NCBI GenBank assembly: GCA_022340665.1
Contig: JAJDNM010000005.1
Coordinates: 1 to 40,698, forward strand
Source of the DNA: Acidobacteriota bacterium
GTDB taxonomy: Bacteria; Acidobacteriota; Thermoanaerobaculia; Thermoanaerobaculales; Sulfomarinibacteraceae
DNA: 40,698 bases
Reading direction: 5' to 3'
Shown here: positions 22,632-39,267 of the stretch, in pieces
Numbering within the stretch: the stretch's first letter is position 1
Layout of the letters: each line of letters starts with the position of its first letter
The notes under the pieces: model-generated
Database searches by the model: none
The model's input: the letters and a program-made list of their open reading frames with translations, nothing else
What the model was told of the DNA's origin: nothing
Program-made: the position numbers and the translations under genes

Positions 22632-23129
22632 TCAGAAGGTGTAGAGCAGCCTGATCGTCCAACTTTGATACGTCAGGTCGCCGTCGATGTTGTTGAAGAG
22701 AAGCTCGGCCTTGAGCTTACCGAAGAGCTCGATGCCACCGCCGAATCCCCAGGTACCGCCGCCGCCGAAATCCCCGTCGAGAATTGTAGAGATCGACATG
22801 TCGGCGTACCCGAGTCGCCCTGCGAAATAGGCGGGTCCGAGGAAGAACCGGCCGATCGCATAGATCTGGTAGTAGCTGGCGTCAAAGTTCTCGAAGGTGG
22901 CGCCGCGCGAAAACCCGTACTCGACTCCTGCGCCAACCTCGACAAAGGGAATCTTGACCGCGATTTCGAGACCCAGGCTATAGCCCGTGTCCGAGCTGAA
23001 ACTGATATTGCCGAGATCGAAGTCGCCGCCGAAATCGGCTCCAACGGCCAGATTGAGGTCGAATGCCCGCGCCGGGGCGACGGCCGCGAGGACAACCAAC
23101 AGGGCGAGGAATATGTTTCGACGAGGCAT
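22632..23129 (-). CDS. Small outer-membrane beta-barrel protein
   Basis: A 165-residue exported protein with a signal peptide (about 1-22, cleavage near ARAF) and about eight strands: LNLAVGADFGGDFD, YSLGLEIAVKIPFVEVGAGVEYGF, YQIYAIGRFFLGPAYFAGRLGYA, TWGFGGGIELFGKLKAELLFNN and WTIRLLYTF, ending in Phe. The size and strand number resemble OmpX/OmpW-type eight-stranded barrels. ATG 23129 has GGGAGGG upstream; the TTG one codon earlier is less likely. Convergent with the preceding barrel gene. Confidence 0.8.
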   Translation of the reverse strand: MPRRNIFLALLVVLAAVAPARAFDLNLAVGADFGGDFDLGNISFSSDTGYSLGLEIAVKIPFVEVGAGVEYGFSRGATFENFDASYYQIYAIGRFFLGPAYFAGRLGYADMSISTILDGDFGGGGTWGFGGGIELFGKLKAELLFNNIDGDLTYQSWTIRLLYTF

Positions 23130-23204
23130 CAATCCCTCCCGTTAACCGGCAGCACCGTACCACGTAAACCGGCATCCAGTGCGAATGATCGGCTTCTGTG
23201 TTCG

Positions 23205-23395: not shown

Positions 23396-23424
23396 TTGAC
23401 AATCGAGAAAACGGCCGATACGTT
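23396..23424 (+). promoter_or_regulatory. Sigma-70-type promoter of the peptide cassette
   Basis: A perfect -35 TTGACA (23396-23401), exact 17-base spacer and -10 TACGTT (23419-23424, 3 of 6 consensus positions). It gives a leader of about 22 bases before ATG 23454. The 324 bases between 23130 and 23453 contain nothing else but the palindrome at 23205. Confidence 0.75.
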
Positions 23425-23453
23425 AGCTCCAAATACATGATGGAGGGCGGATC

Positions 23454-23654
23454 ATGTCAAAGAGAAAATTGGGCTTCCTGATCATTGCGGTCATGATTGT
23501 CGGTGCGATCGTGCCGGCTTTGATCGCCCCCAGCCTCTCCGAGGCTGCGGTTCAAAAGGTGGGTTGGATGGTCTACACGCCAAACCACCCCAATGGCTGC
23601 GCACCGCTGCCGTACGACTGCTACGTCATCTGGGTTTACCCGGACAACCCCTGA
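23454..23654 (+). CDS. 66-residue exported two-cysteine peptide (candidate precursor)
   Basis: A very small exported protein. Residues 1-31 form a strong signal peptide (KRK, then a long hydrophobic core, cleavage likely at LSEA/AV). The predicted mature peptide has only about 35 residues, is rich in Trp, Tyr and Pro, and has exactly two Cys (49 and 56) enclosing a six-residue Pro-containing loop, CAPLPYDC. It ends YVIWVYPDNP. It has a strong ribosome site (GGAGGG, 6 bases before ATG) and its own good promoter. A hairpin separates it from the downstream beta-propeller gene. I recognise no family. The layout resembles Bacteroidetes NVEALA-type small exported peptides beside beta-propeller proteins, but no NVEALA motif is present, so this is analogy only. 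Confidence 0.75.
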   Translation: MSKRKLGFLIIAVMIVGAIVPALIAPSLSEAAVQKVGWMVYTPNHPNGCAPLPYDCYVIWVYPDNP

Positions 23655-23660
23655 TCGAGG

Positions 23661-23683
23661 TTCGTCAGCTCCAATCTGACGAA
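23661..23683 (+). promoter_or_regulatory. Intergenic hairpin after the peptide gene
   Basis: TTCGTCAG (23661-23668) and CTGACGAA (23676-23683) are exact reverse complements with a 7-base loop, starting 7 bases after the peptide stop. No T-run follows, so it is better read as a processing, stabilising or attenuating element that favours the first gene over the two downstream. Confidence 0.7.
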
Positions 23684-23700
23684 TCCCATCAGGTGAGCCT

Positions 23701-24777
23701 ATGCGGCACGTCCTGAGAGTCGTGTTGCCCTGTGCCGGCGTAGTTCTCCTGTGCGCCGGAGTGCTGGCGTCGCCGGCCGACAAGGCCGGACCCACCTGCA
23801 GCGTCCAGTCCCTCAGCCTCGAAAACCCTGCCTACATGGTCGTCGATGCAGTCGTGCGCGGGGAGCGTCTGCTCCTGCCCGACTACACGAAAGGGCTCCG
23901 CGAAGTCGACCTTCAGACGGGCAAGGACCTCCGTTCGGTCCTCCCCATGGGCACCCAACGGGGCGAGGTCACCGGACCGCAACACCTGGGTTGTGGTTCG
24001 GAACGTTGCGTGGTCTGGGGTGACCGTTACTTCTGGGTCTACTATGACTCCAGGTGGCGATTCCTGCACGAGTACCCGGGTATGAACAGCGCCGCCAGCG
24101 GCCAGCCGCTGGTCTTCCCAGATCGTATGATCGTCTACGGGGTCGCCAGCCCGGAGGTATCGGGCGGCGGGGTTCCAGCGTATCTCTTCGTCCAGTACGA
24201 CGACGGGGAGATTCTGCCACTCCAGGAGTACCCGGCCTCGATGCCGATTCCGGAGATCGTCAAGCGGATCCACTTCCAGGGCGTTACGACCGGAGGTCTG
24301 GCGGAGCTGCCGGACGGAGGCTGGGTCTTCGTCGATCCGCGCAGCTATTCGGTCTTCGTCTTCGATGCCAACGATCGCCTCACCAGGGCGTGGCGAGGAA
24401 CCAACCCCCTCTTTCGGGCGCCAAATTGGGGGGCCTCGCCTCCCGTCTCCGATGATTCGGGACGTCAGGCGTACTCGCGATGGCAGCTCGCGCAACCGCA
24501 GGTGAAGCGTCCGGTCCCGCTCGGCGAAGATCTCCTGGCATTCGTCGTCGGGGTGCCCGACGGGCCGATGCGGCAACGCCACGAGCTGGACATCTACAAG
24601 ACGAGCGGCGAGCCGGTCGCAGTGGGCCTGTCGATCGACGGCGTCCGATCCGGACGGCTCATCATCGCGGACGCGGGCGCAGGTCGCCTGGTTCTCGTGG
24701 GACAAGAAACCTGGGAGCCGTCGGCCGCCACCACGGTCTGGCAGGTCGAAGTACCGCATCTTTCGGTCACGCAGTAG
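23701..24777 (+). CDS. Exported six-bladed beta-propeller-like protein
   Basis: A 358-residue secreted protein with a signal peptide (about 1-24, VLLCAGVLAS). The repeated strand pattern is that of a six-bladed propeller: YMVVDAVVRGERLLLPDYTKGLREVDLQTGK, CVVWGDRYFWVYYD, GGLAELPDGGWVFVDPRSYSVFVFDANDRL, LDIYKTSGEPVAVGLSI and RLIIADAGAGRLVLV. No enzymatic motif is seen. The ATG has AGGTGAG a few bases upstream. It is the second gene of the cassette that starts with the two-cysteine peptide and is followed after 18 bases by the large multi-domain protein. A role in binding, processing or export of the peptide is possible but untested. Confidence 0.75.
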   Translation: MRHVLRVVLPCAGVVLLCAGVLASPADKAGPTCSVQSLSLENPAYMVVDAVVRGERLLLPDYTKGLREVDLQTGKDLRSVLPMGTQRGEVTGPQHLGCGSERCVVWGDRYFWVYYDSRWRFLHEYPGMNSAASGQPLVFPDRMIVYGVASPEVSGGGVPAYLFVQYDDGEILPLQEYPASMPIPEIVKRIHFQGVTTGGLAELPDGGWVFVDPRSYSVFVFDANDRLTRAWRGTNPLFRAPNWGASPPVSDDSGRQAYSRWQLAQPQVKRPVPLGEDLLAFVVGVPDGPMRQRHELDIYKTSGEPVAVGLSIDGVRSGRLIIADAGAGRLVLVGQETWEPSAATTVWQVEVPHLSVTQ

Positions 24778-24795
24778 CAGGATTATGGGGATTTC

Positions 24796-27700
24796 ATGAA
24801 TCGCACCACGGTCATCATCATCACAGGGTTGGCGATGGCACTGGGCGTCGTAGCCTTCGGATCCGAGGTTGTTGCTCCGGACGGAACGGTTGTCACGGAT
24901 ATCGTGGCGGCGCAGGCGAATGACAGCACGACGTGGGTCCGGGTCGGCGCGGGTGTTCCGGTAGCAACGGTTGCTACGGCGGAGGGACAACTCGCCCTGC
25001 CGCAACTTGCCGTCGCCTCCTACCTCGTTCAGGACGCGGTCAGCGGCGAACCAGTCACGATCGGTTCGTTGACCTGGCTGGTTCCCGAAGCTCCAGAGAC
25101 TCTCACCACCGCGGAGTGGGAATCGAGCCGCGGGCACCTCGACCTTCATTGTCGCAACGGTGATCGCGTCGTCGTTGCCGCACGGGGTCATGCACCGGTG
25201 ACTACCCGGGTTGTGACCGACGGTCGACGTCACACGGTTCTGTTGCAGCCCCGATCCACGGTCACGATCGAGCTCGAGCCGGCGACTGCGGCTCAGATGT
25301 GGCTTGCTCGTGAAGATCAGATCGACGTCCTGACCCTGTTCGCGAACGTCGCCGCCAAGCACGATGTCCCCGAGGATGGCCGGATTGACGTGCCGGATCT
25401 CGATCTCGATGCAAGATATTTAGGCGTTGTCGTCGCGCATGGCAAGGCACCGGCGGTCACGATGTTCCGTGATGTCTCCGAACCGCTGACGGTGCAGCTG
25501 GCGGATGGTCTCGAAGTCACCGGCAGGGTACTCGACGAGGAGGGTGAACCATTTGCCGGGGCAAAGATCGACGTCCTCGGGCAGATTTCGGAACTCGACA
25601 GCTTTCGCTACAACCAACGTGGCCGGAGCTCGCCAAATGGCGAGTTCGCATTGGCAGGGCTCCTTCCGGGCGCGGTCCGTGTCCGCGCGTGTGCAGACGG
25701 CCTTGCCTGCGCAGAGGCCATCGTCGAGCTGAGCGAAGACGCCGCGAGCGAGCCGGTCACCCTGCAGCTGATTCCCGGTCGCGACATCGTGCTGGTTGTC
25801 GAGAACGAGATTGGCGAACCTGCCGCCGACGCGATCCTCTACTTCAAAGACCGGGTGTATCAGACCGACAGCAACGGCGAGCTGCGTGTGCCGGGTTTGT
25901 CGCGCGGCACGACCATACCGATCAAGATCTTCGGTACCGGATTCGGGTTCTGGGAGGGCAGCTTCGCGACCGACCGCGAGCGTGTCGTCATCACCGTCCC
26001 GGGCGGAGCGATCATCGAACGTCAGGTTCTTTCACCGAGCCGATTCGCAGCCGACGAGGTCATCGTTCGCTGGCAGGCCTACACCTCCACCGGTCGCGAG
26101 GGGAAGTCCGGCAAGGGAAGCTGGGATGCCGAGCACGGTATCGCCCGCGCATCGGGCCTCGAGGCCGGTACGTACTCGCTTTCGGTCAGGCTTCCCGGCT
26201 CGGCCACGATCACTTCCGAGCGTGTCACGGTGGCTCTCGGCGAGGAGTTGGCGCTTGCCCCGATCGTTCCGGACCGCGGCCTCGCGCTGGCCGGGCGGGT
26301 GCTCGATGCGGAGACTCTGCAACCCGTCCCCGGAGCCCGGGTCAAATGCGAACCTGGCTCGCCGGCAGTCTTCCGGGCACCGGAATTGCTCGGCGACGTG
26401 CCGAGAACTCTGACCGACGCCGACGGCATGTTTCTCCTGGAGGGTCTCGACCCGGGCACCTGCCGTGCAATCGTCAGCGCCTCGGGTTACGCTACGTGGC
26501 GGCTCGACGGCGTCGAGCCTGACGACGTTGGTTACGACATCGGAGACGTGGAGCTCGACGCCGGCATGACGATCGTCGGTCAGGTCTACGACCGGATGGA
26601 TCGTCCCGTCACCGGCGCGGTGGTGGAAATCACCGAGGCTGCCGCCTACGCATACTTCGCCGAAACCAAGGTTCGCACCGATCACGACGGCTATTTCCGC
26701 GCCGATCGCGTGCCGGTCGGCCGATGGAAGGTGACTGCCACGCACGGCCAGGAAACCGCATCCGAAACGGTCGAGGGCGACTCCCGGGAAACGGTGGTGG
26801 CGGATCTCATGCTCGGTGGCATCCGCATCGAAGGCGAGATCTGGCTTGGCGACGATCGGGCGCCGGGAGGCACTCTGGTCCTGACCACCGAAGGAGCGCA
26901 GGCTCCCGGTGTCGTCGTGATGATGCAGCGGGTCACCGATGATCGACAGATCTTCGGCATCGACCAACAGCCGGTACAGTTCACGGTCGGCACCGACGGG
27001 CGGTTCTTTGGCTCGGGCCTCCAGGCAGGTCAGTACTGGGCGTCCTACACCCCTCCAGGCTCGGGCGCCGCGCCGATCACCAAGTCTCTCGTCGTTCCGC
27101 AGGTCGAGACTTATCGGTGTGCGATCCAGTATGCGGATGCAGCCGTCGAGGGATACGTCGTCGACGACGACCACAATCCGGTAGCCGGGGCGATGGTCCT
27201 CGCCAGCGTCGGCGAGAACGCTCAGGACGTCACGGCCTATACCGACGGGGAAGGCCGCTTCTCCGTGCGCGGTCTCGAGCCAGGCCACCTGGTGCTGACG
27301 GCCAGCCACACCGACTTCGCGCCATCCGACCCGTCGGAGCTCGAGATCCGCGACGGTTCCGTCGAGGGACCGGTTGTGCTCGAGCTCCAACCGCACGACG
27401 GCGCCAGCGTGTTGCTCGCAGTCAACACCCTCGCCGGCTCGGCCGGTGGCGCACCAGTCTATCTCGTGGGGCCCGAAACCTCGACCGGTTTCACGGATGG
27501 GGGCGGCTTGGCGACCTTTACCGGCATCCCTGCCGGCAGCTATCGTCCATGCGGCATCGCGTATGGCGGAGCCACCGGTTGCGGTCCGAATTTGATGGTC
27601 GACAATGGCGAGCAGCTTCAGGCTCAGCTCGATCTCGGCCAGGGTGGATACATCGATGTCTACCTGGATGATGACGCGGCCGGTTTCGCATCTTCGAAGA

Positions 27701-27936
27701 ACGTCGTAGTGGCGGCCGCGAAGCGGGGGCCGAGGATTCGGGTCACGACTGCCGACGGCGTCGATCTTTCGAGCCTTCTGTTCATGGCGAGCCCGCCGCA
27801 ACAAATGAGCGGTGGCGTCCGTATCGGACCGCTGCAGCCCGACGACTACATCGTCACGGTCACCACCGAGCTCGGACCACGGCAGGGCCAGGTTCAGGTC
27901 CGCGAGGGCGAAGGAGTTTCACTCGACCTGCGGTGA
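24796..27936 (+). CDS. 1046-residue exported protein of repeated carboxypeptidase-regulatory-like domains
   Basis: A very large exported protein with a signal peptide (about 1-23) followed by at least six beta-sandwich units of the carboxypeptidase-regulatory-like (CarboxypepD_reg/Cna-B-like) type. Unit hallmarks are GRVLDEEGEPFAGAKIDVLG, then TDSNGELRVPGLSRG; GRVLDAETLQPVPGARV, then TDADGMFLLEGLDPG; GQVYDRMDRPVTGAVVEI, then TDHDGYFRADRVPVG; and GYVVDDDHNPVAGAMVLA, then TDGEGRFSVRGLEPG. No membrane anchor, LPxTG or barrel domain is seen at the C-terminus. It would be periplasmic or surface-located with an adhesive or scaffold role. It ends the peptide cassette, 20 bases before a strong terminator. 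The minus-strand frames inside it are shadows of its codon bias. Confidence 0.85.
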   Translation: MNRTTVIIITGLAMALGVVAFGSEVVAPDGTVVTDIVAAQANDSTTWVRVGAGVPVATVATAEGQLALPQLAVASYLVQDAVSGEPVTIGSLTWLVPEAPETLTTAEWESSRGHLDLHCRNGDRVVVAARGHAPVTTRVVTDGRRHTVLLQPRSTVTIELEPATAAQMWLAREDQIDVLTLFANVAAKHDVPEDGRIDVPDLDLDARYLGVVVAHGKAPAVTMFRDVSEPLTVQLADGLEVTGRVLDEEGEPFAGAKIDVLGQISELDSFRYNQRGRSSPNGEFALAGLLPGAVRVRACADGLACAEAIVELSEDAASEPVTLQLIPGRDIVLVVENEIGEPAADAILYFKDRVYQTDSNGELRVPGLSRGTTIPIKIFGTGFGFWEGSFATDRERVVITVPGGAIIERQVLSPSRFAADEVIVRWQAYTSTGREGKSGKGSWDAEHGIARASGLEAGTYSLSVRLPGSATITSERVTVALGEELALAPIVPDRGLALAGRVLDAETLQPVPGARVKCEPGSPAVFRAPELLGDVPRTLTDADGMFLLEGLDPGTCRAIVSASGYATWRLDGVEPDDVGYDIGDVELDAGMTIVGQVYDRMDRPVTGAVVEITEAAAYAYFAETKVRTDHDGYFRADRVPVGRWKVTATHGQETASETVEGDSRETVVADLMLGGIRIEGEIWLGDDRAPGGTLVLTTEGAQAPGVVVMMQRVTDDRQIFGIDQQPVQFTVGTDGRFFGSGLQAGQYWASYTPPGSGAAPITKSLVVPQVETYRCAIQYADAAVEGYVVDDDHNPVAGAMVLASVGENAQDVTAYTDGEGRFSVRGLEPGHLVLTASHTDFAPSDPSELEIRDGSVEGPVVLELQPHDGASVLLAVNTLAGSAGGAPVYLVGPETSTGFTDGGGLATFTGIPAGSYRPCGIAYGGATGCGPNLMVDNGEQLQAQLDLGQGGYIDVYLDDDAAGFASSKNVVVAAAKRGPRIRVTTADGVDLSSLLFMASPPQQMSGGVRIGPLQPDDYIVTVTTELGPRQGQVQVREGEGVSLDLR

Positions 27937-27955
27937 CTTGATCGAGCAATAGCAC

Positions 27956-27986
27956 AAGGGGGCGGCTTGAACCGCCCCCTTTCCCT
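27956..27986. terminator. Strong intrinsic terminator between convergent genes
   Basis: AAGGGGGCGG (27956-27965) and CCGCCCCCTT (27972-27981) form a perfect 10-bp stem with loop CTTGAA, followed by TCCCTTT. The A residues on the left side are few, so it serves mainly the plus strand (peptide cassette) and may partly serve the convergent gene. Confidence 0.85.
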
Positions 27987-28016: not shown

Positions 28017-30302
28017 CTATCGCCGACGTGTGGGGACTGGACGCTTCGTCGGTCCACCGCTTCTTTGGAGCTGTTGCGTCCGGATGTCTCCACGCTGCCG
28101 TCCGCCATAAGCCCTGTTGAGAGAACCGGGCGTCGTCGCCGGTCGGGTCGCCGGGCGTTGCCCGGTGGTTGGCCGCGATCCCGTGGACGGCCGGGTCGAG
28201 GGTCGCGTGTCGACCGAGGGACGAGTTGAGGGTCGCGTGTCGGCCGATGGACGGGTCGAAGGTCGTGTGCTCGGCCCCGGCAGGGTTTCTCTGCCGGGGA
28301 CGTCAACCGTCGACCACCCTCCCTGGCCGCGTCGGTCCCAGCTGCCGTCATCATTGCGCCGGTAGACGTTTCCACTGCGGTCGGTATAGATGTTGTTGTC
28401 GCGATCGCGCGCCACTGCAGGGCGGCGATCCGGTGTCACGCGATCTCGGGTGGTGGCCACCCGGTCCGAGTTCGCGGGTCGCGCGTAGATGTTGTTGTTC
28501 GGTCGGGTCCGTCCGTAGGGAGTGGGATGGGGACGGCTCGCAGCAGCCGACCCGTGAAGGTAACCGTGGCGGTAGCCCGCCCGGTAGCCGGCGCCGTAGC
28601 CGTACCACGGATAGGGTCGGTACCAACCCGGGCCCCACCAGCCGCCATGCCAGTGGCCACCCCATCCCCATCCGCCGAATCCGACCGAAAAGTTGAACGG
28701 ACCGGTCGACCAACTGAGGCCGAAGCCCCAGCCGTACCACGGGTTCCACCGCACGTGAAAGCCCCAGGTCGAATGGTGGGGATAGTAGTAGCGTGGTCCC
28801 CAGTAGGGTCGGTAGTACCAGCCGGTGCCATAAACCACACAGCCGTGCGCGATATAGCTCGACGTATAGCCCGGTGTGTAGCCCACATAGACGACTTCCG
28901 GCGTCGACTCATAGACCTTCACATAGGTAACGTTGTAATGAGGGTTCGACGGAGGGATGGTGTAGATCTCGTCCGGTACGTTCTTGCAGACCATCCAGGG
29001 TCCGGTGGCCGACGTGGATTCATACCAGATGCCCTGGTCACAGCAGTAATATCTACTACCCGACTTGATGACCGCAGCCGAGGTGTTGACCGCATAGGTC
29101 ATGCGGGTACCCTCGACAGGTTGAAACTGTGGTGTGCCGTCGTACTCAACGCTGAATGATGCTCCGGCGTTCGTTTTGACTGCCGCGGTCTGCGGTACGG
29201 CCTGTTCGAGCAGCGCCTCCTGCGCCTCGTCGGTGCCGGCCACCGATGCGCGGAGATAACCGACGTCCGACTCGGCCGGAATCTCCGAGAACTCCACCGA
29301 CAGTTCGTCGTTCGCCACCCAGATCCACGGACCCAGATCGAGGTCTTTCGTACGGTACCAACGACCCGAGAGCAACGCATAGTAGTCCTGGCTCGCGATC
29401 TCGAAGAGCACGTCGGAGTCGGTATTCGACACCATCATCACCTCGCTCGCCGAGAACGGTTCGAGCTTCGGTTGGCCATCGATAAAGATCAGCTCCGCTG
29501 GCACCGTCGACACCACGATCTCCGGAATGCGCTTGTCGGTTGCTTCGGCCTTGGACGCGTCCTGTTCCTGCTGCTGTTTCTTGAGCTCGTCGTCGACCCT
29601 CTGGACATCCTTCGGCAGATCACCGGCCAGCTTCCAGGGGCCCTTGATCGAGGGGGATTCGAACCAGCGCGTGTCCGACGCCAGGTAATAGGAGTTTTTG
29701 TGTTTCAGGATCACGTACGGGGTGTTGACCACCCGTTCGAGCGACGAGCCATCGACGTCTTCCAGCTTCGGCTCGCCGTCGATCAGAATCAGCACCGCAG
29801 GTTCGTATTTGACGATGATCTCCGGCGGCGCGTGTTTCAGGTCAGCCTCGGAACGCTGAACGATTTCGGCGTCTTCGAGCAGCGGCACGAGGCGGTCGAG
29901 TTCGATCTCCAGGTCCCAGGTGGGGATCTTTTGCTCGAGAAACGATGCCAGCCTCTCTCGATCTCCCTCTGACGTCTCGGGGAAGGCCACGGACGGGACC
30001 TCGATATCGAAAAAGCTCACCATGCGGGTGTCGCGATTGACGTCAAATCGGCCGCTCAGCCAGACCGCACCATAAATCGGCGCGTCTTCGCCCTTGGCGA
30101 TGGACACCGCCGCCCGCGCGTCAAATGTGTTGTTCGTCCAGGAATCGATCTGCGGCTCGAACATGGTCACGGTGAACAGATCGCCTCTCATGACCTGCGG
30201 CCACATCTTGGTTGTATCATCGTTTTCGGCGACGACTGTTCGAGGGACCGCTGCGATCGCGATCGCCACCACCATCGCCACGAGCACGGCTCTCTTGATC
30301 AT
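28017..30302 (-). CDS. Large envelope protein with Gly/Tyr/Trp-rich core and S-T-R-P tail
   Basis: A 761-residue exported protein with a signal peptide (about 1-25). The first half has repeated beta units of similar pattern: PPEIIVKYEPAVLILIDGEPKLEDV and PEIVVSTVPAELIFIDGQPKLEPF, each followed by a YYLAS.TRWFES...GPW or YYALLSGRWYRT...GPW motif, then YYCCDQGIWYES.SATGPW. About residues 480-610 are extremely rich in Gly, Tyr and Trp. The tail (about 690-740) repeats STRPS/DTRPS units and is strongly basic. Similar proteins are labelled carbohydrate-binding family V/XII in databases, a label I cannot verify here. GGGGAGG precedes the ATG. Confidence 0.78.
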   Translation of the reverse strand: MIKRAVLVAMVVAIAIAAVPRTVVAENDDTTKMWPQVMRGDLFTVTMFEPQIDSWTNNTFDARAAVSIAKGEDAPIYGAVWLSGRFDVNRDTRMVSFFDIEVPSVAFPETSEGDRERLASFLEQKIPTWDLEIELDRLVPLLEDAEIVQRSEADLKHAPPEIIVKYEPAVLILIDGEPKLEDVDGSSLERVVNTPYVILKHKNSYYLASDTRWFESPSIKGPWKLAGDLPKDVQRVDDELKKQQQEQDASKAEATDKRIPEIVVSTVPAELIFIDGQPKLEPFSASEVMMVSNTDSDVLFEIASQDYYALLSGRWYRTKDLDLGPWIWVANDELSVEFSEIPAESDVGYLRASVAGTDEAQEALLEQAVPQTAAVKTNAGASFSVEYDGTPQFQPVEGTRMTYAVNTSAAVIKSGSRYYCCDQGIWYESTSATGPWMVCKNVPDEIYTIPPSNPHYNVTYVKVYESTPEVVYVGYTPGYTSSYIAHGCVVYGTGWYYRPYWGPRYYYPHHSTWGFHVRWNPWYGWGFGLSWSTGPFNFSVGFGGWGWGGHWHGGWWGPGWYRPYPWYGYGAGYRAGYRHGYLHGSAAASRPHPTPYGRTRPNNNIYARPANSDRVATTRDRVTPDRRPAVARDRDNNIYTDRSGNVYRRNDDGSWDRRGQGGWSTVDVPGRETLPGPSTRPSTRPSADTRPSTRPSVDTRPSTRPSTGSRPTTGQRPATRPATTPGSLNRAYGGRQRGDIRTQQLQRSGGPTKRPVPTRRR
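28170..28275. repeat. 30-bp period coding repeat of the S-T-R-P tail
   Basis: The unit GGTCGCGTGTCGGCCGATGG recurs with changes at about 28201 and 28231, and in more diverged form at about 28171 and 28261, a 30-base period. Each encodes ten residues of the minus-strand gene (TRPSTRPSxD type). The tail probably varies in length by slippage. Confidence 0.7.
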
Positions 30303-30423: not shown

Positions 30424-30765
30424 TCAGGCGCCGAACGACGCGACCGCCAACTCCTCGTCATCGAACATCTCGAAAACGCCGACCAGCTGGGCCATGGTCA
30501 ACAGCTTGCGCGCCTTGATGTTGGCGTTCAACAGCTTGACCTCGGCGTCGTGTGATGTGGCCGTCACCTTGCTTCGGATGAGCTCGCCGAGACCCGAGGA
30601 ATCAATCGTGCTCACGGTTTCCAGATTGATCAACAGTTTCTTGCCGCCGCCATCAAGTTCTTTGACGAGCGCTTCTCGAAGCGCCACGTCGCCGGTGCCG
30701 ATGGTGAGCTTGCCGTCGAGATCGAGTATCGCGACGTCACCCACCTTGCGATTGGTGATATCCAT
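30424..30765 (-). CDS. STAS-domain anti-sigma factor antagonist
   Basis: A 113-residue single STAS domain like SpoIIAA/RsbV. VAILDLDGKLTIGTG, then LLINLETVSTIDSSGLGELI and VKLLNANIKARKLLTMAQLVGVFEMFDDEELAV match the fold. The phosphorylatable serine is in DSSGLG (Ser56/Ser57). It would bind an anti-sigma kinase when dephosphorylated. A SpoIIE-type phosphatase that could act on such a protein is encoded at 9359, but no kinase or sigma factor is seen in the window. ATG 30765 has GAAGGGA upstream and gives the family N-terminus; the longer frame is not needed. Confidence 0.9.
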   Translation of the reverse strand: MDITNRKVGDVAILDLDGKLTIGTGDVALREALVKELDGGGKKLLINLETVSTIDSSGLGELIRSKVTATSHDAEVKLLNANIKARKLLTMAQLVGVFEMFDDEELAVASFGA

Positions 30766-30860
30766 GTCAGTCCCTTCGGGCTCTCGCGGCGGGCGAACCC
30801 GCGCCGAGCGTGGAAAAGTCGAGACATTATCGCACAATTACGGCCAAAAGCCAGCAACTT

Positions 30861-33350
30861 CTATTCCGAACCGCTGTCAGCGTCCTTCTCGTCTCGCTGC
30901 GAGAGCGAGATCGCTGCATCCGAGTCAACCGACCGGAGGTGGATGTCACGTTGCGGAAACGGTATCTCTATGCCGGCCTCGCGGAACGCGTCATCGATGC
31001 TGACTCGCAGATCACTCGAGACGGCTACGAAGTTCTCCCTGGTCCAGGCACGTAGCTCGAAATCGAGGGCGCTGTCACCGAATCCGAGGAAGAGCGCCTC
31101 CGGTTCGGGATCAGCCAACACCTCGGGGTGGTCACCCGCAACCCGGTTGAGGATCTCGATGACCACGCGCGGATCGGTGCCGTATGCAACTCCGACCGGC
31201 ACCTTTGCACGGCGCCAATTATCGCTCAGGGTCCAGTTGATGACCTCGGTAGATATGAGGTTGGCGTTGGGGACGATGACTTCGGCACCCTCGATAGTGC
31301 CGACCACGCTCGCCCGCATGCCAATACTCTTGACCGTTCCGAACAGGTCGTTGACCTCGATCTTGTCGCCAACTCGGATTGGCCGCTCGAACAGCAAGAT
31401 CAGGCCCGATACGAAGTTGTTGACCACATTCTGGAGACCGAAGCCGATGCCGACGCCGAGAGCACCGATGATCAGACTGATGTTCGAAAAATCGAGACCC
31501 GCAGCCGAGCCGGCGATGATGACGCCAATGACGATGATCACGTAGTGGGTCAGGCGGGAGATGGTCGCTGGTACGCCGCGCGGAAGATCCATCTTCGGCA
31601 TGACGTCCGTCTCGAGTCCGAATCGAATGATCCTCGAGATCTTGAACGTCAGCCAGACAATGAAAACGAAGATCAGGACGTGCGCAGGGACAATCGAGAA
31701 ATCCCCGATGGAAATCGGCCGATTCAGGATTCTCTTGAGGCCGGACATCACATCATCGAAGACTCCGAACCCGCGCAAGGTCATCGCAGCCCATCCCACC
31801 AGCGCGAGGAAGTCGATCAGCGCGAAGAGACTTTGGCGGAGAGTGTCTCCGTGCAAACGGACAAGACCGAATCGACGCGCAAATTTCGTCAGCAACGCGA
31901 CCCGCACGACCGCCTTCATCAGGATGGTGCCGACCCGGGCCATGATCGCCGCGTAGACGCTGGTGAGGGTTCCGTCGATGATCAGGGTTGCCAAGCCAAC
32001 AGAGCCGAAAAGGTTGGCGATGGTCCCTGCTACAAACGCGAGGAACACCAACCATGCGAAAAAGACGATGGTGTGCGTCCATCCTTGCGAGACGTCGAGA
32101 GCCCGGTTGCGGACCTTTTTGAGAAACCAGTAGCCCGAACCGGCAGCGGTGAGCGACAGGGCAAGGAGTGCGAATCGGTTGATGATGTTGCCGTCAGGTG
32201 CCAAATCGGCGATTTTCTGGAGGAAATACACCAGGGGCAGCAGGTAGGCGCCGAGTCGAAGCGACTCGGGGAGCAAAATCGGGAACATCCTCAAGAGGGC
32301 AAGCAGCAGGAGAAAACCGAGAAGACTTTCCCAGGCACGCGGCGCGCTTGGATTGAAGACCTCACTGAGAAGAAAGGTAATGATGAAAGCGGCTGCCACC
32401 GGACGAGCGAGGAGATCTACTACTGACTGAAGGGAACGGTCCTGTTGCACCCAAAGCGAAGCGTGCCTGCGCAAAAACAACAGAAAGACGGTGAGCAGAA
32501 CAAAGAACCCGCCTTGCTTGGACAACCTGTCCTTGCTCGCGGTGGCATACGCCTGGATGGATTCCCTGTTTTTTGTCCAGATTTCCTCGAAATAATCAAC
32601 TGGCGAGGCGGTGAGTCCGGGAGCCGCAAACACCTTCCATATGGGCAAGCTGTCAGAGCCGAAAATGCCTCGTCCGCGGCGATCCATTTCTTCCGAGAGG
32701 TGCACCAGCATTTCGTCTGTCGCAACCTTTTCGCGCGCCACCTCGGACTGCAGCGTGAGCACCGCGTCACGACTGCTGAGAACGGCCGTCTCTGCCTCGC
32801 CAATCGCTGCAAGCGTGTCTTCGACCTGCTGGCGAAGGACCCCTGGGAGGCTGACTTCGTCGGCCGATTCCAGTGTCAGCTCCCAGAGCCGACGCTCCTT
32901 CTCGAGTCTTCGTCTCTCTTCTTCAATCTCGGTGGAAGCGCTCTTCAATGTGCCCATCCAACCATCGAGCAGGCCTGCCGAGCTCAACCAATCGGGTTCG
33001 ACCTCCTTCACAATCGACCCCGGCCCTCCGGCTTCGACCCGGCGCAGCGTTTCCTCTCTCAGTTGATCAAGCTGTTGCCTCTCGCGATCGAAATCTTCCG
33101 CGAGTTTCTCGAGGTCTTCACTGACGTCTGTAGCGGCGACCGCATCGCGAAGCGTGACGCTGATCTCTGCGGCTTCATTCGGAATCTCGGACGCAGGAAT
33201 CGCTGTCGGCACCGGCGTCGGCAGTATGGCCGGAGTCTCCGTCGGCTCCTGGCCTGTTTGAGCGAAACTCGTCGTTGCTACCAACAGACACGTCACCAGG
33301 GCACCACACGACACCTGCCGCAACACGCCCGTACCCACTTTCCGTCTCAT
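30861..33350 (-). CDS. Large MscS-family mechanosensitive channel (MscK/MscM type)
   Basis: An 829-residue membrane protein. After a signal peptide (cleavage near SFAQ) comes a periplasmic, largely coiled-coil region (about 50-280, e.g. LEKLAEDFDRERQQLDQLREETLRRVEAG). About ten membrane helices follow. The MscS core (about 590-810) has the pore helix IGALGVGIGFGLQNVVNNFVSG, then LLFERPIRVGDKIEV, GTVKSIGMRASVV, VIVPNANLIS.EVINWT and a beta/alpha cytoplasmic end. It would open under membrane tension to release solutes in osmotic downshock. ATG 33350 gives a normal signal peptide; the upstream frame extends into the neighbouring nhaA gene and is rejected. The ribosome site is weak. Confidence 0.92.
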   Translation of the reverse strand: MRRKVGTGVLRQVSCGALVTCLLVATTSFAQTGQEPTETPAILPTPVPTAIPASEIPNEAAEISVTLRDAVAATDVSEDLEKLAEDFDRERQQLDQLREETLRRVEAGGPGSIVKEVEPDWLSSAGLLDGWMGTLKSASTEIEEERRRLEKERRLWELTLESADEVSLPGVLRQQVEDTLAAIGEAETAVLSSRDAVLTLQSEVAREKVATDEMLVHLSEEMDRRGRGIFGSDSLPIWKVFAAPGLTASPVDYFEEIWTKNRESIQAYATASKDRLSKQGGFFVLLTVFLLFLRRHASLWVQQDRSLQSVVDLLARPVAAAFIITFLLSEVFNPSAPRAWESLLGFLLLLALLRMFPILLPESLRLGAYLLPLVYFLQKIADLAPDGNIINRFALLALSLTAAGSGYWFLKKVRNRALDVSQGWTHTIVFFAWLVFLAFVAGTIANLFGSVGLATLIIDGTLTSVYAAIMARVGTILMKAVVRVALLTKFARRFGLVRLHGDTLRQSLFALIDFLALVGWAAMTLRGFGVFDDVMSGLKRILNRPISIGDFSIVPAHVLIFVFIVWLTFKISRIIRFGLETDVMPKMDLPRGVPATISRLTHYVIIVIGVIIAGSAAGLDFSNISLIIGALGVGIGFGLQNVVNNFVSGLILLFERPIRVGDKIEVNDLFGTVKSIGMRASVVGTIEGAEVIVPNANLISTEVINWTLSDNWRRAKVPVGVAYGTDPRVVIEILNRVAGDHPEVLADPEPEALFLGFGDSALDFELRAWTRENFVAVSSDLRVSIDDAFREAGIEIPFPQRDIHLRSVDSDAAISLSQRDEKDADSGSE

Positions 33351-33448
33351 TTCATGATCCAATCCAAGACCCAGCGCCCGACTGTACTCAGAGCTATCGT
33401 GACGCGATGATTCTAAGCGACACCACCCTCTGGCCCGAAGAGGAAAGT

Positions 33449-34762
33449 CTAACCCTTCGGCAAAGCTCGCGCCAAAACTCCGTATCCAAGGATTCCAGAG
33501 CTCAGCGATGCCGCGAGAATTCCGATCTTGGCGGTTGCAATCAGTGCCTCGTTGTCGAAAGCGAGATCGGTGATGAAGAGAGACATCGTGAATCCGATGC
33601 CCGCCAGGCACCCGGCGCCGAATACCTGAGCCCACGTTACGCCTGCGGGCAGCGCACCGTGTCCGCTCTTGACTGCCAGCCAGCTCATGAGGCCGATGCC
33701 AACGGGCTTGCCCACCACCAGTCCTACGATGATGCCGAGGGAGAGTGGCCTCGCGAGCACCTCTGTCACATTCCCACCGACCGCAACACCCGCATTGGCC
33801 AGGGCGAAGAGGGGCAGTATCAACCAGATCTGGATGGGGTGCAGGTGGTGTTCGAGCACCAGGCCGGTGGGGAGCGCATCCTCGGCCCTGGAGCGGATGG
33901 ACTCGACGATATCGAGTTGCTCGCGATCATCGATCATCGAGTGCACGGAGGGCTTCAGGTGCTTGATGCGTTCGAGCCGTTCTTCGGTTTCGTCGATGAA
34001 CACTTGCGGATCGACCCGCGGCCGCACCGGAATGACCAAAGCTACGAGTATTCCGGCCACCGTTGCATGAACCCCCGAGGAGAACACGGCGAGCCACACC
34101 CCGATGATCAAAAGATAGAGAATTCCCCGGCGCCACCGGGCTTTTACGGCGACAAACAGCAGCGCCAGCAGAACTGCGGCCGCTCCGAGGGCGCCGACCT
34201 GGATCTCATCGGTATAGAAGATCGCGATCACCGCCACCGCACCGAGGTCGTCGGCAATGGCAAGTGCCGTGAGGAAGATCTTGAGAGCCAGCGGCGCACG
34301 GGTGCCGAATATGGCAAGGACCCCGAGGGCGAACGCGATATCCGTGGCCATCGGAATGCCCCATCCACGGGCACTCTCCGTTCCCAGGTTGAGCAGCATG
34401 AAGAAGGCCGCCGGCACGACCATGCCACCGACCGCCGCTGCCACCGGCAGCACCGCCTTGTCGAACGAGGAGAGCTCGCCGACCACCAGCTCCCGCTTGA
34501 TCTCGAGACCAACGACAAAGAAGAAGACCACCATCAAGCCATCGTTGATCCAGTGGTGCAGGGAGAGCTTGAACGACGCGTCGCCCCACGTCACACCGAT
34601 GTAGGTGTGCAGGAGATCGAAGTAGGTATCCGCCCATGGAGAGTTGGCCCACAGCAACGCGACAACGGTGCATGCCAACAAGAGGAGGCTGCCCGCCACC
34701 TCTGAACGAACGAACCACTCGAACCAACTGCGGACGCCTGTCGTGTCCTTCGCTGTAACCAT
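33449..34762 (-). CDS. nhaA: Na+/H+ antiporter NhaA
   Basis: A 437-residue NhaA antiporter that exchanges internal Na+ for external protons. The ion-binding aspartate pair is Asp171-Asp172 (AIADDLGAVAVIA), the crossed-helix motif is ATDIAFALGVLA (Asp141), and the conserved Lys region is VVGKPVGIGL. Further family landmarks are HHWINDGLMVVFFFVVGLEIKRE and AGIGFTMSLFI. Length is slightly above the E. coli protein. ATG 34762 has GGGAGG upstream; the longer frame overlaps the divergent channel gene. It is divergent from the pentameric channel at 34851, with an 88-base shared control region. Confidence 0.96.
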   Translation of the reverse strand: MVTAKDTTGVRSWFEWFVRSEVAGSLLLLACTVVALLWANSPWADTYFDLLHTYIGVTWGDASFKLSLHHWINDGLMVVFFFVVGLEIKRELVVGELSSFDKAVLPVAAAVGGMVVPAAFFMLLNLGTESARGWGIPMATDIAFALGVLAIFGTRAPLALKIFLTALAIADDLGAVAVIAIFYTDEIQVGALGAAAVLLALLFVAVKARWRRGILYLLIIGVWLAVFSSGVHATVAGILVALVIPVRPRVDPQVFIDETEERLERIKHLKPSVHSMIDDREQLDIVESIRSRAEDALPTGLVLEHHLHPIQIWLILPLFALANAGVAVGGNVTEVLARPLSLGIIVGLVVGKPVGIGLMSWLAVKSGHGALPAGVTWAQVFGAGCLAGIGFTMSLFITDLAFDNEALIATAKIGILAASLSSGILGYGVLARALPKG

Positions 34763-35858: not shown

Positions 35859-35988
35859 GAGCCTATCCGAGTACATCTCGAAGAATCGCTAGACGCGTCC
35901 CAGATCCTTCGCATTTCGGCGCGAGGTCCTGCTACCTTACTGCCGGGAAAGAATGTCTGATCGTCTGGGGGGTCCCATGAAACGGCTG

Positions 35989-38900
35989 TTTGCCCTGTTC
36001 GTCGTATGTTCGTTGATCGTCCCGTTCGTCGCGGCTGAGGACGAGGAGCCCGGCACCGGTATGACCGCCAAGGCTTTCAAGGGCCTGGAGCTCCGCAGTA
36101 TCGGTCCGGCTTTGATGTCGGGTCGGATCGCGGACATCGCCGTCCACCCGACCGACTTCAGCACCTGGTACGTGGCTGTCGGCTCGGGCGGAGTCTGGAA
36201 GACGAACAACGCCGGTACGACCTGGGAGGCGATATTCGACGGTGAGGCATCGTACTCGATCGGTTGCGTGGCCCTCGATCCGACGAACCCGGAAACCGTT
36301 TGGGTCGGAACCGGCGAAAACGTCGGCGGCCGCCACGTCGGGTTCGGTGACGGCGTTTACAGAAGCATGGACGGCGGCAAGAGCTGGAAGAATATGGGAC
36401 TTGCCGACTCCCAGCACATCTCCGAGATCATCGTCGATCCAGAGGACTCGAACACGGTCTACGTCGCCTCCCAGGGACCCCTGTGGTCAGCCGGGGGGGA
36501 ACGCGGGCTCTTCAAGACCAGCGACGGCGGGAATACCTGGGAAAACGTCCTGTCGGACGGTGAGTGGACGGGAGTCACGGATGTCGTGATGGACCCGCGC
36601 GACCCGCAGGTGCTGTATGCGGCCACTTGGCAACACCACCGGACGGTGGCGGCCGTGATCGACGGTGGCCCGGAGTCGGGAATCTATCGCACCGATGATG
36701 GCGGCACCGCATGGACGAAACTCACCAAGGGTCTGCCCAAGGGCAACATGGGCAAGATCGGCCTTGCCATCTCACCGCAGAAGCCGGATGTCATCTATGC
36801 CGTCATCGAGCTCGACAATCGCAAGGGGGGCACCTGGCGGTCGTCCGACCGCGGCGCGAGCTGGGAGAAGCGCTCCGACGCCGTTTCGGGCGGCACAGGC
36901 CCGCACTACTACCAGGAGCTCGAGGCAAGCCCACACGCATTTGACCGTATCTACATCATCGACGTGCGTATGCAGGTGTCAGACGACGGCGGCAGGACAT
37001 TCCGCCGAGTCAAAGAGGTGGCGAAGCACTCGGACAACCACGCTCTGGCCTTCCGGCCAGACGATCCCGACTGGCTGCTGGCCGGCACGGATGGAGGGCT
37101 CTACGAGAGTTTCGATCTCGCCGAGAGCTGGCGATTCATCGCCAATCTGCCGGTGACCCAGTTCTACAAGCTGGCCCTCGACGACTCGGAACCCTTTTAC
37201 AACGTCTACGGCGGCACGCAGGATAACAACTCCCAAGGGGGACCGACACGGACCGCCAGCGTCAACGGCATCACCAATGCCGACTGGTTCATCACCCTCT
37301 TCGCGGACGGCCATCAACCGGCGGTCGAGCCGGGAAATCCCGACATCGTCTACTCGGAATGGCAACAGGGCAATCTGGTGCGCACAGATCGAACCACCGG
37401 TGGCATCGTCTACATCCAGCCCCAGCCCGAACCTGGCGACCCGCCCGAGCGCTTCAACTGGGACGCGCCGATTCTGATCAGCCCGCACTCCCCGACCAGG
37501 CTCTACTACGCCTCGCAGCGGGTGTGGCGATCGGATAACCGGGGAGACAGCTGGGTTCCGGTGAGCCCCGACCTGACGAAGAACCAGGACCGCATCCTGT
37601 TGCCCGTGATGGGCCGTCAATGGAGTTCGACCGCGCCCTGGGACCTTTCCGCCATGTCGAACTACAACACAATCACCTCTCTCGCCGAATCACCGGTCGA
37701 GGAGGGCCTGTTGTGGGCCGGAACAGACGACGGGCTGCTACAGCTCAGCGCGAATGGCGGCGAAAGCTGGCAAGCGATCCCGGTCGGAGACCTCCCGGGA
37801 ATCCCGGACACCGCATTCGTCAACGACATCAAGGCCGATCTCTTCGATGCCGACACCGTGTACGTCTGTCTGGACAATCACAAGTACGGAGACTTCAAAC
37901 CCTACCTGATGAAGAGCACCAATCGTGGCCGGAGCTGGTCATCGATCGCCGGCGACCTGCCCGATCGGCACCTCGTGTGGCGGCTGGTTCAGGATCACGT
38001 CAAACCGGACCTCCTGTTCGCCGCCACCGAATTCGGGCTCTTCTTCACCGTCAACGGTGGCTCGAACTGGATTGGACTTTCCGGTGGGGTACCGACCATT
38101 TCCTTCCGTGATCTGGCAATCCAGAGGCGAGAAAACGACCTTGTCGGCGCGTCCTTCGGACGCGGATTCTATGTGCTGGACGATTACACAGCGCTTCGTG
38201 ATGTCAGCGAAGAATCGATGAGGAAGGAGGCAACGCTCTTCCCGGTCAGAAAGACCCCCTGGTACATCCAACGGCGGCCACTCGGAGACAGCGGCAGGGC
38301 ATCGCAGGGAGCATCCTATTTCGTCGCCGACAATCCTCCCTTCGGCGCAGTCTTCACCTACCACCTCGCTGACGGTTTGAAATCTCTCGAGGATCAGCGC
38401 CGCGACGGTGAGAAGAAGCTGGAAAAAGACTGGAAGGACACTCCGTACGTCGGGTTCGAAGCCCTCGAGAAGGAACGGCGGCAACCGAAACCCGCCATTC
38501 TACTGACCATACGCGATGCAAACGGCAACGTTGTCCGCACTCTCAGCGGCCCCATCAAGGCGGGTTTTCACCGCGTGGCCTGGGACCTCACCTACCCGAC
38601 CACCGCCGCCATCCAGCGAGGGCGGAACATCAGCGAGGAAGAGGAGTCGGAAGGCCGCGACTCGGGCTTCATGGCGCCGCCAGGCATTTATACGGTAACC
38701 CTGTCGAAGAGAGCTGACGGCCAGATCACGAACCTTTCGGAGCCTATGAGCTTTGAAGTTGTCCGCTATTTCGAGGGAGTCCTCGATGGGATGACGCCGT
38801 CCGCGACCGCCGAATTCATGCAACGGGTGGCCGAGCTGCAGCGCAGTGTGACCGCTGCCAACGCGTCCCTGAGGCAGGCCTTCGAAAAAGTTGATCTCCT

Positions 38901-39267
38901 CGAGCAGGCACTGGCGAGATCAAAGGTCGATCCGGGTGCCCTCGATATCGAGCTCGCGAGTCTTCGACAGCGACTCTTCGAACTCGACGAGATGCTGTCC
39001 GGCAACCGGTCGCGGCGATCGATCGGAGAACCTCGGCCACCCACGGTTTCCGGGCGGCTGCGGGTGGCAGCGATGACCGACGGCCAGTCAGACTATGGTC
39101 CGACCATGACTCACCAGCGGGCCTTCGAGATCGCGCGCGACGAGTATGCGACCATCGAGCCTCAGCTGCGCCAGGTCCTCGAGGTGGATATTCCCGCTGT
39201 CGAGGCAAGGATGGAGGCGGCCGGTGTGCCGTGGACCCCGGGGAGGTCGCTACCGACAATCCATTGA
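35989..39267 (+). CDS. Sortilin/VPS10-like Asp-box beta-propeller protein
   Basis: A 1092-residue exported protein with a signal peptide (about 1-20). About ten Asp-box motifs (SxDxGxxW type: TNNAGTTWE, SMDGGKSWK, TSDGGNTWE, SSDRGASWE, SDNRGDSWV, SANGGESWQ, STNRGRSWS) lie in a double-length propeller from about 40 to 750. After this is a beta-sandwich (AILLTIRDANGNVVRTLSGPIKAGFHRVAWDL), then a coiled-coil C-terminal region (about 935-1080). Family members are often called glycosyl hydrolase, but no catalytic residues are evident and the role is unknown. I chose ATG 35989 because it begins the signal peptide; ATG 35953 lies downstream of a TACCTT -10-like hexamer (35933-35938) and is the alternative. 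Confidence 0.88.
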   Translation, partial: FALFVVCSLIVPFVAAEDEEPGTGMTAKAFKGLELRSIGPALMSGRIADIAVHPTDFSTWYVAVGSGGVWKTNNAGTTWEAIFDGEASYSIGCVALDPTNPETVWVGTGENVGGRHVGFGDGVYRSMDGGKSWKNMGLADSQHISEIIVDPEDSNTVYVASQGPLWSAGGERGLFKTSDGGNTWENVLSDGEWTGVTDVVMDPRDPQVLYAATWQHHRTVAAVIDGGPESGIYRTDDGGTAWTKLTKGLPKGNMGKIGLAISPQKPDVIYAVIELDNRKGGTWRSSDRGASWEKRSDAVSGGTGPHYYQELEASPHAFDRIYIIDVRMQVSDDGGRTFRRVKEVAKHSDNHALAFRPDDPDWLLAGTDGGLYESFDLAESWRFIANLPVTQFYKLALDDSEPFYNVYGGTQDNNSQGGPTRTASVNGITNADWFITLFADGHQPAVEPGNPDIVYSEWQQGNLVRTDRTTGGIVYIQPQPEPGDPPERFNWDAPILISPHSPTRLYYASQRVWRSDNRGDSWVPVSPDLTKNQDRILLPVMGRQWSSTAPWDLSAMSNYNTITSLAESPVEEGLLWAGTDDGLLQLSANGGESWQAIPVGDLPGIPDTAFVNDIKADLFDADTVYVCLDNHKYGDFKPYLMKSTNRGRSWSSIAGDLPDRHLVWRLVQDHVKPDLLFAATEFGLFFTVNGGSNWIGLSGGVPTISFRDLAIQRRENDLVGASFGRGFYVLDDYTALRDVSEESMRKEATLFPVRKTPWYIQRRPLGDSGRASQGASYFVADNPPFGAVFTYHLADGLKSLEDQRRDGEKKLEKDWKDTPYVGFEALEKERRQPKPAILLTIRDANGNVVRTLSGPIKAGFHRVAWDLTYPTTAAIQRGRNISEEEESEGRDSGFMAPPGIYTVTLSKRADGQITNLSEPMSFEVVRYFEGVLDGMTPSATAEFMQRVAELQRSVTAANASLRQAFEKVDLLEQALARSKVDPGALDIELASLRQRLFELDEMLSGNRSRRSIGEPRPPTVSGRLRVAAMTDGQSDYGPTMTHQRAFEIARDEYATIEPQLRQVLEVDIPAVEARMEAAGVPWTPGRSLPTIH

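Follow-up and report, generated by a model that had tools for sequence, protein, structure and literature searches.

A small, conserved two-cysteine peptide gene precedes a propeller-like gene and a carboxypeptidase-regulatory-like repeat gene in two genera of Acidobacteriota

Small exported peptides beside propellers

NVEALA peptides (PF14055) of Bacteroidota sit beside six-bladed propellers, and in methylamine and quinohemoprotein amine dehydrogenases small cysteine-containing exported subunits sit on propeller subunits. The window analysed here, a 40,698-nucleotide stretch of DNA from an Acidobacteriota bacterium of the family Sulfomarinibacteraceae, carries a cassette of three genes, for a 66-residue peptide, a 358-residue propeller-like protein and a 1046-residue protein built of carboxypeptidase-regulatory-like (CPD) domains. 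A sequence-only reading of the window had named the NVEALA loci as the nearest analogy, which holds for the layout, in that a gene for a small, predicted exported peptide adjoins one for a predicted exported propeller, but goes no further: the window peptide lacks the NVEALA motif, belongs to a different phylum and is accompanied by a third gene, that of the CPD-repeat protein. PF14055 had no match to the peptide in the Pfam scan (E ≤ 1) and none in the whole genome (E ≤ 0.1), and the peptide is not an NVEALA family member.

The cassette is likewise similar in layout to the amine dehydrogenases, combining a small cysteine-containing exported peptide with a propeller-like partner, but its peptide is far smaller, has two cysteines only and matches no chain of a solved structure in the PDB. 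The propeller-like protein has a weak profile match, over short stretches, to the NHL-repeat propellers TRIM71 and Thin, and differs from them in being bacterial, in its signal-peptide-like start and in having no Pfam match. The third gene encodes a multi-domain CarboxypepD_reg (PF13620) protein, but one linked to a peptide-propeller pair. No described family matches this set, in agreement with the earlier statement that no such system had been described; searches of the open literature brought up no paper about NVEALA or a gene set like this one, which says little, most subscription papers being missing from that literature.

Three genes in a fixed order

The peptide gene (23454..23654, + strand) ends in ...GCAPLPYDCYVIWVYPDNP and encodes a predicted signal peptide to about A31, followed by a mature part of about 35 residues with two cysteines, C49 and C56. 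Ahead of it lie a Shine-Dalgarno sequence GGAGG (23442..23446, + strand), kept in 6/6 loci, and a promoter (23396..23424, + strand) composed of a −35 element TTGACA (23396-23401), a 17-nt spacer and a −10 element TACGTT (23419-23424). Both had been picked out from the sequence before and are where they were said to be; the pattern TTGACA-N17-TAnnnT recurs in 6/6 loci, and a consensus promoter scan did not list this promoter, whose −10 element agrees with TATAAT at only three positions. The six loci are that of the window and those of five further genomes returned by a propeller search of the family: G016 and G018, which share the window's genus g1, and G009, G010 and G011 of a second genus, g6 (62-82% identity). 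Wherever the junction is assembled, the peptide ORF lies immediately 5' of the propeller gene (6/6 genomes in two genera), and the order peptide, propeller, CPD-repeat protein is invariant in 6/6 loci. The small ORF, its promoter and the arrangement of the genes are found again in five other genomes, which is more than chance would give.

Alignment of the six peptides gives 20 invariant columns and a mature core of G-W-M-x-Y-x-P-N-H-P-x-x-C-x-P-L-x-x-D-C-Y-V. The expected signal cleavage site A31 is invariant, as are W38, Y41, H45, C49, D55, C56 and Y57, and six residues separate the two cysteines in all six sequences. Between the window and G016 genes there are 21 synonymous and 3 non-synonymous codon differences, and dN/dS for the whole gene is about 0.03-0.31 in 13/15 pairs. 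Between the genera the signal part has diverged (dN 0.67-0.94) and the mature part is conserved (dN 0.06-0.44), with mature dN below signal dN in 9/9 cross-genus pairs, for example 0.06 vs 0.90 for window vs G010; constraint on the mature part is moderate in some pairs, such as G018 vs G011 (dN 0.44, dS 0.77). Judging from these codon comparisons, purifying selection acts on the mature peptide at the protein level, selective constraint sits on the portion predicted for export, and the 66-residue ORF is a genuine, strongly conserved gene. The proposal of a real two-cysteine peptide gene with a signal-peptide-like start is thereby borne out: neither outcome named beforehand as refuting it, absence of the small gene from homologous loci or lack of conservation in its codons, was seen at the 6/6 orthologous loci.

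No Pfam or NCBIfam family matches the 66-residue peptide, and a peptide profile, run against 396 Acidobacteriota genomes and 149 from the class, found nothing outside its own clade. Weak profile matches in G291, G344 and G473 (E 0.003-0.013) were to translations without the peptide motif and were rejected; the remaining weak matches were taken for noise without reading their translations. A low-confidence model of the peptide places strands at residues 37-41 and 57-61, on either side of the Cys loop.

An intercistronic hairpin (23650..23693, + strand) spans the junction with the propeller gene. Its inner stem is a perfect 8-bp helix (23661-23668/23676-23683), and its outer stem pairs CCTGAT of the peptide stop region with ATCAGG overlapping the propeller Shine-Dalgarno sequence. 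Folding z-scores of this junction in the three genus-g1 genomes are −2.8, −3.7 and −3.4, with 1/200 shuffles folding as well in each; in G016 and G018 the pairing covers most of the propeller Shine-Dalgarno sequence, and in G018 the inner stem keeps its pairing despite a different sequence. Rfam has no match at the hairpin. The simple reading is translational coupling, because a ribosome finishing the peptide would open the hairpin. The perfect stem had been correctly noted earlier and taken as a sign that the first product is made in excess, but the element is better read, from its pairing geometry, as a coupling device. No hairpin of this kind was found in genus g6 (G009, G010, G011), and the hairpin is therefore no universal part of the cassette; there the propeller start lies 11-14 nt past the peptide stop without a clear Shine-Dalgarno sequence of its own, a short spacing that would couple the two genes by proximity. 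An excess of the first product is compatible with coupling, though neither geometry argues for an excess device.

The propeller-like gene (23701..24777, + strand) is present where an exported propeller had been announced, the fold itself being drawn from a weak NHL profile match only. An eight-sequence profile compared with NHL propellers gave its match to TRIM71 at E 1.3e-5, weak and over short stretches only; Pfam has no match for the 358-residue protein, and an AlphaFold model built from a two-row alignment was unusable (pLDDT 41.6). On this weak profile match the protein appears distantly NHL-like. Behind its signal part, Cys33, Cys98 and Cys103 are invariant in the six cassette propellers, and Cys98 and Cys103 are absent from both distant homologues aligned (G031, G036). 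Such a pattern is to be expected if peptide and propeller share a disulfide-dependent surface; the co-occurrence of these cysteines with the peptide amounts to one phylogenetic event.

The CPD-repeat gene (24796..27936, + strand) encodes a 1046-residue, predicted exported chain that matches PF13620 with E 8.6e-57 (189.9 bits vs a cut-off of 32.3). The earlier count of six or more domains stands as regards a multi-domain chain, for which six or more is plausible, but Pfam detects five stretches. Behind the gene, the predicted strong terminator corresponds to a GC-rich hairpin with a T-rich tail (27958..27982, + strand), which the consensus scan did not list as a terminator; terminator-like hairpins of differing sequence occupy the same position in G016 and G018. 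The three genes would form one unit, co-transcribed from the promoter of the peptide gene.

Neighbours and distant relatives

Among the 20 genomes of the family, the CPD gene occurs in the six cassette genomes and in G017, where it lies at a contig end and the contig stops before the propeller; it was not found elsewhere in the family, where several of the genomes are incomplete drafts. The three-gene set likewise went undetected in most of the family's other genomes and in the Acidobacteriota sampled. The cassette is new and narrow, carried by a small group of Acidobacteriota.

Upstream neighbours differ by genus, with OmpA-like and barrel-like genes in g1 and, in g6, a gene encoding a trypsin-like protease (G011) or one similar to it (G010). 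Downstream, a STAS gene (30424-30837) and an MscS-like gene (30861-33635) lie near the cassette in both genera. Further genes of the window were recorded in passing. One at 28017-30302 (minus strand), coding for 761 residues rich in Tyr, Trp and Gly with a Ser/Thr/Arg/Pro repeat tail and no Pfam match, adjoins the cassette in both genera and is carried by several family genomes without the cassette, among other neighbours. A 166-residue exported-looking protein without Pfam match (22632-23132, minus strand) is also encoded beside the unit in G016 and not in the second genus, and a 1104-residue protein with Sortilin-Vps10/BNR repeats (35953-39267) is encoded near the cassette in genus g6 also.

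Distant propeller homologues are found in a sister family. No recognisable small exported ORF lies upstream of those in G029 and G031, so that propellers of this family do not always come with the peptide. Next after the propeller, G029, G031 and G036 encode a small protein that looks thioredoxin-like (GACFGC in G036), a label given by appearance, with no match in Pfam, and hinting at thiol chemistry. G036 has the order propeller, thioredoxin-like-looking protein, CPD protein, the last with 990 residues and aligning along its length with that of the window (26%, E 1.8e-58). Propeller and CPD protein may form the older core, and only in the two genera is the peptide certain.

A 51-residue exported-looking ORF 5' of the G036 propeller (L051, G036:C46:49810-49962, minus strand) was considered as a distant relative of the peptide and not accepted, as 16 further genomes from its family yielded no relatives. 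L051 ends in CKP-TAG, and its frame stays open for 24 codons beyond the TAG (MHVCELTRSEIALSYNHKLRELLP), reaching the start of the propeller gene in an ATGA overlap; with the TAG counted as a residue, a C-x6-C spacing like that of the window peptide appears, for which chance or a nonsense mutation are possible explanations. Separately, the distant propeller gene at G029:C159:3852-4929 is read as two pieces in different frames, which points to either a frameshift or an assembly error.

Possible roles of the three products

Our best explanation, a tentative one, makes the peptide a small subunit of the propeller, closed by a disulfide, and the CPD protein an envelope scaffold, a reading we favour because the mature peptide is conserved, the order fixed, translation seemingly coupled and the propeller cysteines lineage-specific. 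One promoter and coupled translation would yield a Sec-exported peptide and an exported NHL-like propeller; signal cleavage would leave about 35 residues, in which a C49-C56 disulfide would close a small two-strand loop. The peptide would then most likely dock on the propeller, and the CPD-repeat protein, in the periplasm or at the surface, would carry both. Adhesion, sensing and extracellular ligand binding are all candidate tasks for the trio.

An unlikely, though still sizeable, alternative is that the mature peptide is released as a pheromone or effector, with the propeller or the CPD protein as its receptor or carrier. Small size, a signal-peptide-like start, first place in the unit, a strong ribosome site and a conserved mature part would all suit a released peptide, but sensor kinases, receptors, processing peptidases and exporters are all absent from the conserved cassette, and species-specific pheromones differ from a mature core that is nearly invariant across two genera. 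Somewhat less probable is that three adjacent envelope genes share no common function; against this, the order is kept in two genera despite different upstream neighbours, and within the family the CPD gene never occurs without the other two except at a contig end. It is improbable that the peptide is a mini-subunit in which the invariant residues (His, Asp, Tyr, Trp, Cys) serve as metal ligands or are converted into a cofactor: these residues and a propeller-like partner in the same unit fit such a role, but no radical-SAM or other maturation gene was found in the cassette or the neighbouring window genes scanned (not every small ORF), and the peptide resembles no chain of known structure. 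Least probable is a cis-acting regulatory leader whose translation would do no more than open the hairpin and in this way control the propeller, since, although the hairpin spans the peptide stop and the propeller Shine-Dalgarno sequence, mature residues are conserved well upstream of it amid many synonymous changes, and genus g6 conserves the peptide without such a hairpin.

The subunit-and-scaffold reading can be extended to a new class of envelope machine: a propeller held on a giant CPD-repeat scaffold would have a disulfide-looped peptide of 35 residues as its obligate subunit, translated together with it, and other phyla would have arrived at equivalent sets with different peptides; we regard this extension as speculative and rather unlikely. 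An ORF without family match now stands for a gene family whose conservation is firm and whose partners are defined, and the cassette makes an unexplained layout, a very small exported peptide next to an exported propeller, testable in compact form. Should the peptide turn out to be a subunit of the propeller, comparable small ORFs that adjoin propellers elsewhere would become interpretable.
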